Source: a virus. From it: a stretch of 64,000 nucleotides of DNA. How positions within the stretch are numbered: position 1 is the stretch's first letter; each line of letters starts with the position of its first letter. This document shows, piece after piece, positions 5,445-55,687 of the stretch. Under the pieces are notes generated by a model. That model worked only from the letters and a program-made list of their open reading frames with translations, searched no databases and had not been told where the DNA came from. Made by a program: the position numbers and the translations under genes. Where the stretch lies: positions 1 to 64,000 of the IMG/VR virus record IMGVR_UViG_3300017917_001958. The stretch is one strand, 5' to 3'.

Positions 5445-6374
5445 TTAATTTTCGTTTAAATTTTTTATACTTATAGAACATTTAGTTCTTTTTTTGATAT
5501 TATCTTCCCAAGGAATAAATTCTAAATTTTTAATATCACCAATTATTTTAGGTGAAATATTATTTTTAAATCCTTCTAATATTGAAAATTTGTGATCTAA
5601 ATGATATGCCCCATTAATACCGGCATTACCTCTTTTTTCAAAAAATGGTAAAATGTTTATTTTTTGTTTATTTGTAAATTTCATAACTTCCCTTTTATAT
5701 AATACATATTTCTCCGTATTTTCTAAATAAATATTATATGGTATTTTACTAAATTTTCGTACTTGACCTACAGAAGTCCCTTCACTTTTATTCCTTCTAT
5801 AACCTGTATTACTTAAAAATTTTTCAATAAAATGTTTATTTAAATTAAGATTGTTTGATATTTCCTTTGAATTTTTATATTCATTTAAATATAAATGTTT
5901 AATATTTTCTTTTTGTTCTTTAGTTAATTCAATTTTTTTACCATTACTTCCATTTTTTCTTAATATATTTTTTTCTTTAAAAATTCGTTTTAAAATTGAT
6001 TTAGATATATTAAATTCTTTTGATAAAATATCACAACCAATACCTTTTTTATATCTTTCAATTAGATTATCAATAACATCCTTATTAAATTCTTTTTTTC
6101 TTTTATCTCTCCCATCTATTAGGGTATTATTTTCAATTAAAATTCTTTTTATTATTCTTCTATGAATTCCAATATTATTGGAAATTTTTGTTACGGACAT
6201 CCCATTTTTATATAATTCAATAATATTATTTTCATTGACTATTTTTTTTTGGTGAGTTTTTGAACATATATTACAAACAGAATTAAACTTAATTGATCTT
6301 TGATAGGTAATTAAATTTTTATAAACTTGTGGTTGATTACAACTATGGCATTGTTTAATATATGTTTGTGTCAT
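5445..6374 (-). CDS. Free-standing HNH homing-type endonuclease with N-terminal zinc finger and HTH repeats
   Basis: The N-terminus has two CxxC pairs (C9/C12 and C34/C37), a likely zinc ribbon. Residues about 45-195 hold repeated helix-turn-helix-like units (ELYKNGMSVTKISNNIGI; ERYKKGIGCDILSKEFNI; LNEYKNSKEISNNLNL), typical DNA-recognition modules. The C-terminus has a phage HNH core around residues 250-300: YHLDHKFSI, then NLEFIPWEDNIKK and a final KCSI. The family nicks or cuts DNA to promote its own spread. The gene lies between tail genes that are otherwise joined by TAATG overlaps, which suggests insertion as a mobile gene. It carries its own TATTTATT motif 4 nt from the ATG. It is highly AT-rich and lysine/asparagine-rich compared with its neighbours. 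Confidence 0.85.
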   Translation of the reverse strand: MTQTYIKQCHSCNQPQVYKNLITYQRSIKFNSVCNICSKTHQKKIVNENNIIELYKNGMSVTKISNNIGIHRRIIKRILIENNTLIDGRDKRKKEFNKDVIDNLIERYKKGIGCDILSKEFNISKSILKRIFKEKNILRKNGSNGKKIELTKEQKENIKHLYLNEYKNSKEISNNLNLNKHFIEKFLSNTGYRRNKSEGTSVGQVRKFSKIPYNIYLENTEKYVLYKREVMKFTNKQKINILPFFEKRGNAGINGAYHLDHKFSILEGFKNNISPKIIGDIKNLEFIPWEDNIKKRTKCSISIKNLNEN

Positions 6375-20897: not shown

Positions 20898-21344
20898 TTA
20901 TAGTTCGTATTGTAAATACGTTGTTTCCAATTCTTCAGATGATAATATGTCAGTTAAATCTAACAAAAATCTTTTAAGATTTGGACGTATGTCCACCGTA
21001 TACCTAACCTTTGGATGGTAGTAATACGCTGGAAATATTCTTTGAATAAATACATCATCTCCTACCTTAATTTGTAGTAAGAAATGTTCTTTTTCTTTAT
21101 TCTCCGATTCTTCCACACTATCAGAAGATTGAAAATAATTTTGATTCTCACATAGAAAATCAGAACTTTTTATTTTTAAATCTTCTGAAATTTCGTTACA
21201 AATATTTTTTACATAGTAATGTAAATCCATAGATCTTCTTGATTCATATACGTGATCCTTTACATTAAAAAATCTTTGACAAATAATGTTACCTTCTAAA
21301 GTTAGAAGAAATTCAAATTTTGTGATGTCTTGTTGATTACTCAT
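20898..21344 (-). CDS. Conserved-looking unknown protein of the replication operon, 148 aa
   Basis: Function not recognised. It is a compact alpha/beta protein with a DITKFEFLLTLEGNIICQRF start. An acidic linker (SSDSVEESENKEKE, about residues 73-86) precedes a second half with a strand pair and a helical C-terminus (LKRFLLDLTDILSSEELETT). Its start overlaps the upstream nuclease gene by 8 nt and it ends 19 nt before the gp41 gene, so it is co-expressed with replication proteins. A role as a helicase accessory or loader is possible but not shown. Confidence 0.6.
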   Translation of the reverse strand: MSNQQDITKFEFLLTLEGNIICQRFFNVKDHVYESRRSMDLHYYVKNICNEISEDLKIKSSDFLCENQNYFQSSDSVEESENKEKEHFLLQIKVGDDVFIQRIFPAYYYHPKVRYTVDIRPNLKRFLLDLTDILSSEELETTYLQYEL

Positions 21345-22379: not shown

Positions 22380-23387
22380 TTATTCTTCAATACTTGGTTC
22401 GTCAAAATTTTCAACAAGTTCTAACTCTCCAGTGATTCCTAAAGTTTCTTTCCAAAGTGATGAATATTCTTTTTTATATTCGTCCAACGCTTCTTTAGTA
22501 TCATCAATATATCCGGTAGGTACCGCAATTACTTTTCCATCTTTATATTGTAGACCATTAACATGGTTCTTTAAAACAGAGATTTTTGTTCTAATTGCAA
22601 ACGCCACTTTTCTACCATCTTTAACCGCATCGATGTGATTAATTCCGGCTTTCTTTTGGTTACCAAATAAAAATACAAATGATGATGCTAACCATAATGC
22701 TTCACCACCTTTTGCTTTAATTTCAGGTTGACCAAATGGATTATCCGGTAGATCAACCCATGGTTGATTAACCACAACTAATGTACTGTATAATGGATTT
22801 TCTTTTGTTGGGTAATCTTCTTTTTTAGATTTAGAAATTCTTGAATGAAGACCCATTCCAATTTTATCTGCGAGAGCAGCTGCATTATGTTGCTTACCTC
22901 CCTTACCTTCAAATGTCATTTTACATGGAACCGAACCAACGGAATCCCATAAAAATAAAATTGATTGTGTGATGTCACCTTTTTCTTGTGCATCTAACAC
23001 TTCATGCATGAAATCTGTAATTTGTTCGATATATTCAAAACTATCGTTAAAAATAAAATCACCAATCCATTCACCATTTACATCTTTTTCCGCTTGTAAT
23101 CCTAATTGAATTGCATGTTCCCAATTCCATTTTTTTTCTGTGATAATAAAAACAGGTAAGTGACCTTTCTTTTGAGCGTCCGCAGCTGCTAAAATCATTG
23201 CCGTTGTTTTTGACGTATTAGAATGTCCTAATAACATATTAATACCACCCATAATTGGTCCGGGTAATCCCGTTGCCTTTAAAAAAGCTTCTCCGCAGTA
23301 ATAATAACTCGGATCTTTATATTTTGTAGTCGATGAAAATTTTTTCTTTATATCTGAATCAAATGTTTTTTTCTTAATTCCGGCCAT
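22380..23387 (-). CDS. uvsX: RecA-like recombinase, T4 UvsX-like
   Basis: A strand-exchange ATPase for recombination-dependent replication. Walker A is the T4-like variant GHSNTSKTT (about residues 50-58). Walker B-like ILFLWDSVGSVPCK follows (about 120-133), then TLVVVNQPWVDLPDNPFGQP, a RecA L2-like region. I start at the ATG at 23387 (335 aa, MAGIKKKTFDSD). The longer in-frame ATG at 23426 lies inside a hairpin that ends the gp32 transcript region. A C-terminal acidic tail (LELVENFDEPSIEE) is present. Confidence 0.9.
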   Translation of the reverse strand: MAGIKKKTFDSDIKKKFSSTTKYKDPSYYYCGEAFLKATGLPGPIMGGINMLLGHSNTSKTTAMILAAADAQKKGHLPVFIITEKKWNWEHAIQLGLQAEKDVNGEWIGDFIFNDSFEYIEQITDFMHEVLDAQEKGDITQSILFLWDSVGSVPCKMTFEGKGGKQHNAAALADKIGMGLHSRISKSKKEDYPTKENPLYSTLVVVNQPWVDLPDNPFGQPEIKAKGGEALWLASSFVFLFGNQKKAGINHIDAVKDGRKVAFAIRTKISVLKNHVNGLQYKDGKVIAVPTGYIDDTKEALDEYKKEYSSLWKETLGITGELELVENFDEPSIEE

Positions 23388-23468: not shown

Positions 23469-24305
23469 CTAAAATGGTAAGTCATCATCAACCTCACTAT
23501 CTTCCTGTGGGTCTACAATAGGTGTTGATGGTTTCGTGATTGTTTCGTCACTAGTACTGTTTGAAACATATTTCTTTAGGTCTGAGTCCCAACGTGGTAC
23601 CTCTCCTTTTGCTATTAATTCCAAATAATCCTCACTCTTTTTAGCATAAACATCAGACCAAACTAAACTATCTTCTAACCAAGATTTTGCAATATTTTCA
23701 TCAGTGTGTAATGGACTTGCATCTTCAGGGATAATTGAGTTAATAACCGTGTATTCACTACCTTTACCTGATTTAGATAATGTTAAAGATAAAATTAAAT
23801 CTCTACCATTTTCTGGATTGGTAATATCCCCTTTATTACGAAAGATTGGGAATATTTTATCTAAGGTACCATCACCTTTAGCATTATGTTTAAATCTCCA
23901 AAATTTTACTCCATCATTTTCTTTATCTCGATCGATAACTTTTACAATATAAAATTTACGGGATCTGTATTGACGAGCCAATTCTTTATCGGATTCATCT
24001 CCGGTTGACATTAATCCGTCATATACGTCATTTAAAGGTGAACGTTTTCCTTCTTGTTTTGGGTCGTATACTTTAACCCATTTACCATCCACTTGAACTT
24101 CGTGGAAATAAACCTCAACAAATGGTGATGAACCATCTTTTGTAGGTAAAATCCTAACTCTTCTTTCTTCTCCTTTAGAACCCTTAGGTAATAAAGTAGT
24201 GAAAAACTTTTTCATTCGATCCTCTTGAGGAACTTTGTTTCCATTGCCACCTGTGGCGTTTTTACTTTTCTCATACTGAGACATTACTGAATCATACGTT
24301 GACAT
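23469..24305 (-). CDS. 32: Single-stranded DNA-binding protein, T4 gp32-like, cysteine-free, with DDDLPF tip
   Basis: A 278-aa protein in the gp32 position, first of the uvsX/FEN/gp41 operon, and close to T4 gp32 (301 aa). The N-terminal basic arm and OB-type core (RRVRILPTKDGSSPFVEVYF ... RKFYIVKVIDRDKENDGVKFWRF) fit the family. The T4 protein has a zinc site built from cysteines, but this one contains no cysteine at all. It ends in an acidic tail with the tip DDDLPF, which resembles the C-terminal tip of cellular SSBs (DDDIPF). A terminator lies just upstream and a hairpin just downstream. No late motif precedes it. Confidence 0.85.
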   Translation of the reverse strand: MSTYDSVMSQYEKSKNATGGNGNKVPQEDRMKKFFTTLLPKGSKGEERRVRILPTKDGSSPFVEVYFHEVQVDGKWVKVYDPKQEGKRSPLNDVYDGLMSTGDESDKELARQYRSRKFYIVKVIDRDKENDGVKFWRFKHNAKGDGTLDKIFPIFRNKGDITNPENGRDLILSLTLSKSGKGSEYTVINSIIPEDASPLHTDENIAKSWLEDSLVWSDVYAKKSEDYLELIAKGEVPRWDSDLKKYVSNSTSDETITKPSTPIVDPQEDSEVDDDLPF

Positions 24306-55012: not shown

Positions 55013-55687
55013 ATGGCAACTCAATTAGAAATATTAGCAGATAAGTTCAGACAAGAAAATATTGTAAGAAATTCATATAACACCGATACGAATGGATATT
55101 CTTCAAATAATGTAAACGCATTATCTGATGGTGATGAAAAAGGTAAAGGAGAATTACAAGGTAAAATAGGATCCTCTGTTGATATTCAAAACAGAATAGA
55201 TAATCTCGGTAGAAATAGATATTCTCCAAATAATGGGTATTCGTTAGTTAATCCTGACGCAATCTCCGATGGAGATGAATTCGGTAAGGGTGAAAATAAT
55301 GGACAAATTGGATCCTCTGTTGATATTCAAAACAGAATTGACAACGTTGCCAGAAATAGATATAACAATAATAATGGGTATTCGTTAGTTAATCCTGACG
55401 CAATCTCCGATGGAGATGAATTCGGTAAAGGTGAAAATAATGGGCAAGTTGGTTCATCCATAGATATTCAGAATAGAATAGACAATGTTGGTAGAAATAG
55501 ATATTCTCCAAATAATGGATATTCTTCAACAAATATAGATGCAATCTCCGATGGAGATGAATTCGGTAAAGGTGAAAATAATGGGCAAGTTGGTTCATCC
55601 ATAGATATTCAGAATAGAATATCATCAATTGCTAGAAATAAATTTGGTGAGACAAATAAATACCCTGATTTCTATGCAAATGACTAA
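55013..55687 (+). CDS. Tandem-repeat protein: four 47-48-residue repeats
   Basis: A 224-aa protein. After a short N-terminal helix (residues 1-19), residues 20-208 are four copies of a 47-48-residue unit: NRYSPNNGYS, DAISDGDEFGKGENNGQ and (I/V)GSS(V/I)DIQNRIDN. The C-terminus reads NKFGETNKYPDFYAND. The acidic DGDE/GKGE segment repeats in each unit. No known fold is recognised. The third and fourth units share long identical DNA, so copy number probably changes by recombination. A structural, surface or DNA-spacer role is possible. Confidence 0.7.
   Translation: MATQLEILADKFRQENIVRNSYNTDTNGYSSNNVNALSDGDEKGKGELQGKIGSSVDIQNRIDNLGRNRYSPNNGYSLVNPDAISDGDEFGKGENNGQIGSSVDIQNRIDNVARNRYNNNNGYSLVNPDAISDGDEFGKGENNGQVGSSIDIQNRIDNVGRNRYSPNNGYSSTNIDAISDGDEFGKGENNGQVGSSIDIQNRISSIARNKFGETNKYPDFYAND
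55070..55636 (+). repeat. Coding tandem repeat, 141-nt unit (first 144 nt), four copies
   Basis: Units at 55070-55213, 55214-55354, 55355-55495 and 55496-55636. The last two share a run of about 80 identical nt (from GCAATCTCCGATGGAGATGA onward). The EcoRI-type GAATTC occurs in units two to four. Confidence 0.9.

Follow-up and report, generated by a model that had tools for sequence, protein, structure and literature searches.

A bacterial SSB-type C-terminal tip on the gp32-family protein of a large group of uncultured phages

The sequences analyzed here indicate that a large group of uncultured phages carries an SSB-type tip at the C terminus of gp32, a protein known from textbooks and usually pictured with a tail that docks partners from the phage. 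One such protein is encoded in the window, that is, the whole 64,000-nucleotide stretch under analysis (positions 1 to 64,000 of the 75,910-base IMG/VR virus record IMGVR_UViG_3300017917_001958), and the observation made on it in an earlier note now extends to a whole clade, leaving the proposed docking function well motivated. Our search of the open-access literature returned no description of a gp32 with an SSB-like tip, although absence there proves little.

The window gene occupies positions 23469 to 24305 on the minus strand and encodes a 278-amino-acid single-stranded DNA (ssDNA)-binding protein with an ATG start. Its translation confirmed both features that the earlier note had singled out, as the protein contains no cysteine and ends in EVDDDLPF. 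Membership in the gp32 family was indicated by a Pfam match to PF08804 (59.3 bits, with a cutoff of 26.8) and by the PHROGs, with Pfam returning gp32 alone and no SSB-family OB domain (PF00436); nor was there a match to bacterial-type SSB (PF00436) anywhere in the window's record. At the sequence level phmmer matched the protein to none of the solved gp32 structures, but a fold search succeeded. The AlphaFold2 model (mean pLDDT of 76.7) had as its best Foldseek matches the RB69 and T4 gp32 cores (2a1k and 1gpc), with E values of 2e-10 to 2e-9, a probability of 1.00, and TM scores by target of 0.62 to 0.65, which identifies a gp32 core fold. This OB-fold core, also matched by 8gme, spans residues 30 to 240 approximately (positions 23586 to 24218, minus strand), with pLDDT values mostly between 80 and 94 in the blocks from residue 31 to 240. 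It is followed by a tail predicted to be disordered (residues 251 to 278; positions 23472 to 23555, minus strand; pLDDT below 50), at the end of which lies the SSB-Ct-like tip DDDLPF (residues 273 to 278; positions 23472 to 23489, minus strand).

Relatives were gathered by three scans of viral contigs and one of genomes, and their identity to the window protein ranged from 81% down to about 30%. Among the window protein and its 173 complete relatives, the ending was LPF in 169 of 174 and MPF in the other 5. The close group G1 (L001 to L080) had LPF in 80/80, the set composed of G2 and the group of contig L087 (L092 to L171) had 73 LPF and 5 MPF endings among 78 complete proteins, and the zinc-bearing group G3 (L172 to L184) had LPF in 13/13; contigs L087 and L088 both encode a C terminus reading DDLPF. 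Whether relatives keep the tip was a question raised by the earlier note, and the answer is clear: Pro and Phe are invariant in 173/173 complete clade relatives. Across 110 distinct aligned G1 and G2 proteins, these two residues had zero entropy and the preceding position was Leu in 105 and Met in 5, set against a mean entropy of 1.81 bits in the linker (residues 241 to 272), and position -5 of the clade tip is occupied by Gly, Ser, Thr, Glu, or Asp. Several synonymous codons are used for Leu, Pro, and Phe among the G1 and G2 proteins, arguing that the protein sequence has been kept, rather than that the DNA is of recent common origin. The clade tip is under strong purifying selection. An [LIVM]PF ending was found in 0/981 other mechanically called open reading frames of at least 90 amino acids in the same loci, and we regard the tip as a clade-wide trait beyond chance: a conserved acidic end closing on hydrophobic-Pro-Phe-COOH, carried on a linker predicted to be disordered.

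The otherwise variable linker contains a second conserved element, D265-P266-Q267 (positions 23505 to 23513, minus strand). Its Asp is present in 110/110 distinct G1 and G2 proteins and DPQ lies within the last 40 amino acids of 147/154 proteins of these groups, while the motif was found neither in G3 tails nor in the sampled host SSBs. This distribution hints at a further clade-specific contact.

The SSB-type tip is confined to this clade among the lineages sampled. Scans seeded with the gp32s of S-CAM1, T4, Stenotrophomonas phage Yut3, Microcystis phage Mel-JY01, and Lysinibacillus phage LysYB1 yielded 78, 78, 77, 77, and 14 complete proteins, respectively, and a PF ending was absent from all of these approximately 324 gp32s, a count that is not de-duplicated and in which the scans may overlap. 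Most outgroup tails are LAEE/LAND-like, LL(N/A)GL-like, or LFN-like, the T4-type ending being LLNDL. Within L215 to L374 and L396 to L569, every gp32 lineage conserves a C-terminal end particular to it (LAEE/LAND, LLNDL-like, or LFN). These lineage-specific ends suggest lineage-specific partners. In a tree of 76 gp32 proteins from which the tail ends were omitted, all SSB-tipped proteins fell on one side of a branch with an SH-aLRT value of 97, so that a single change explains the tip; the long branches leave the exact placement of the outgroups uncertain. Among cultured phages, the nearest gp32s reach at most 36% identity over a portion of the sequence, and the clade includes none of the cultured phages in the collection searched.

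The earlier note had further noted that the T4 zinc site is missing, which held, and had set this loss beside the tip. In an alignment read by eye, T4 ligands H64, C77, C87, and C90 correspond to H68, D81, S89, and N92 of the window protein, so that the His is kept, three of four ligands are lost, and no H-C-C-C site as in T4 is left (positions 24030 to 24104, minus strand); a scripted mapping of the columns was shifted by one position at the first Cys. T4-type H-C-C-C ligands are intact in L088, L095, and G3, the zinc-bearing members used in this alignment. Since G3 carries both the ligands and the tip, zinc loss is independent of the tip; linked traits can be ruled out, as zinc-bearing sisters share the tip and many zinc-less gp32s elsewhere lack it. 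Among representatives, 13/31 of the cyanophage type and 24/39 of the T4 set have likewise lost the site. Such repeated loss means that the H-C-C-C site does not define the family, and zinc loss is an ordinary trait among gp32s.

The hosts of the clade are probably Bacteroidota, although each line of evidence is indirect. Shine-Dalgarno sequences are nearly absent (1/48 in the window, 3/406 in G1, and 13/332 in G2, compared with 71/139 in cyanophage loci), and gene leaders in the window, G1, and G2 are A-rich. In G782, a 150-kb relative from G1 and not the window phage itself, all four recognizable cleaved signal peptides, with sites read by eye, have Gln after the site (SYS|Q, SFG|Q, VLG|Q, and VNG|Q), as in the Bacteroidetes-specific Q-rule, by which Gln directly follows the cleavage site (PMC5837995). 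Furthermore, the L088 contig was binned in a Bacteroidales metagenome-assembled genome (MAG). The Bacteroides-type promoter motif was not enriched, being rarer than in shuffled sequences, and was dropped as host evidence; gp32 carriage in 1/395 Bacteroidota and 1/386 Cyanobacteriota genomes is uninformative on the host, as each count represents solely the seed genome. L087 is a phage contig from a Prochlorococcus single-cell genome, and its gp32 is 44 to 45% identical to that of the window. We doubt that Prochlorococcus is its host, given that the L087 group has no Shine-Dalgarno sequences and that the one psbA detected in this genome lies on another contig; it may be a co-sorted Bacteroidota phage.

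Comparison with host SSBs, which the earlier note had called for, revealed the same tip on both sides. When top-scoring SSBs were taken from 30 Bacteroidota genomes, together with two from the Bacteroidales MAG, 31/32 ended in LPF and 1/32 in IPF, while Cyanobacteriota endings are mixed. Firmicutes SSBs also end in LPF, so that the match fits Bacteroidota yet is not unique to them.

The clade-invariant tip residues are those needed for SSB-Ct binding in Escherichia coli, where binding is weakened or abolished when the Phe is lost or the Pro is replaced by Ser; SSB tips dock by burial of the terminal Phe, anchoring of its carboxylate, and Asp pairing (PMC10164576). Docking of host SSB partners by the clade gp32 is thus plausible, and we consider it an evenly balanced possibility that the window gp32 is a T4-type protein with a functioning SSB-Ct-type tip whose partners include host SSB-binding enzymes. 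In such a mechanism, the protein would coat phage ssDNA with its tail left unbound, and SSB-interacting proteins would take up into their conserved pocket the acidic residues together with the terminal Phe and its carboxylate. Less certainly, the docked proteins would include host enzymes such as RecO, PriA, and RecG, to which phage ssDNA would then look like DNA coated with host SSB. PriA was present in 3/3 and RecO in 2/3 of the Bacteroidota genomes checked.

Not every conserved tail need imply host docking, as other gp32 lineages have conserved tails too. It could be imagined that the tail regulates gp32 itself, with an acidic, Phe-ended arm that vies with ssDNA for binding in the OB groove and sets cooperativity in the absence of any partner. 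The window tail is indeed acidic and the SSB-Ct is reported to contact the SSB OB domain (PMC10164576), but acidity by itself would not fix Pro and Phe while position -5 varies, and PF is missing from the acidic tails of other gp32 lineages, making this explanation very improbable. Alternatively, the tip may act against the host, titrating SSB-interacting proteins away from host SSB, so that the host replicates and repairs its DNA more slowly while infected. This proposal draws on the same docking evidence as host-enzyme use, and gp32-type proteins are produced in large amounts; the evidence, however, does not separate sequestering partners from using them, and we consider titration unlikely.

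The main rival to host docking is that the tip binds a phage-encoded partner, with the neighboring RecA/UvsX-like recombinase as first candidate (others being the SNF2 helicase, the DnaB-type helicase, and the primase), and that the likeness to host SSB reflects convergence on the same chemistry. The recombinase gene (positions 22380 to 23387, minus strand, with an ATG start taken; PHROG 97, UvsX-like, E value of 1.5e-14; Pfam RecA match weak and below the cutoff) is the next gene to gp32 in the window, L087, and L088, and in phage HK620 the SSB uses its six C-terminal residues, NDYPPF, to bind the RecA-core protein Sak4, encoded next to it (PMC5928155). A search that recovers the T4 mediator UvsY in T4, Yut3, and S-CAM1 gave no match in 11 clade records, and a direct contact between gp32 and the recombinase could replace UvsY. 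Nevertheless, convergence would have to reach the phylum's own SSB tip, Leu included, and neither RecO nor PriA was found encoded by the clade phages. A phage-encoded partner is a real possibility that we nonetheless rate as improbable on balance, and the tip may dock both host partners and the phage recombinase. Known SSB-binding enzymes were likewise not found among 20 further G782 proteins, save for a weak primase-like match.

Docking of host enzymes, if it occurs, would substitute for UvsY and gp59, the partners of the T4 type. The latter was recovered from T4 and Yut3 but from none of the 11 clade records; as the search also missed S-CAM1, its sensitivity is limited and the absence of gp59 is weak evidence. 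It is conceivable, if somewhat short of an even chance, that the clade exchanged the T4 tail partners for the SSB docking tip of its hosts and that its gp32 sets the host interactome for repair and replication restart to work on phage DNA.

Three other proteins of the window deserve mention. The genes for the 5'-3' exonuclease and the DnaB-type helicase flank that of a 148-amino-acid protein (positions 20898 to 21344, minus strand) that has no match in Pfam or PHROG; it seemingly consists of two related halves, with similar halves in L088, and its place is kept in L087. Among the structural genes, a 309-amino-acid protein (positions 5445 to 6374, minus strand) whose repeats resemble helix-turn-helix motifs and whose end is HNH-like may, by eye, be a homing endonuclease. 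A 224-amino-acid protein (positions 55013 to 55687, plus strand) is composed mostly of near-identical repeats (SSVDIQNRIDNVARNRY...NPDAISDGDEFGKGENNGQ).

A large gp32 lineage thus bears the bacterial SSB tip, invariant at the residues that matter for bacterial SSB, and the C-terminal end of gp32 can be read as a lineage marker. Should host docking be true, a short peptide would tie the T4-type replisome of these phages into host repair.

With the gp32s of T4 and RB69, the window protein has in common the family (PF08804), the core fold, a replication and recombination neighborhood, and an acidic disordered tail. T4 gp32 differs in its DDLLNDL tail and H-C-C-C zinc site, and T4 has both UvsY, which contacts the gp32 tail (PMC5928155), and gp59, neither of which was detected in the clade. 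Bacterial SSB (PF00436) shares with the clade gp32 a disordered linker and an acidic [DE]LPF tip, but it belongs to another protein family, and position -5 is freer in the clade. T7 gp2.5, a phage SSB whose tail recruits replication proteins and serves phage enzymes, is similar in that this tail is acidic and Phe-ended, and likewise differs in family. Like the window gp32, the HK620 SSB is a phage protein with an SSB-like tip encoded beside a RecA-like recombinase; it is, however, described as a tetrameric distant homolog of SSB rather than a gp32, and its tip, which has another sequence, serves a partner that the phage itself encodes (PMC5928155).
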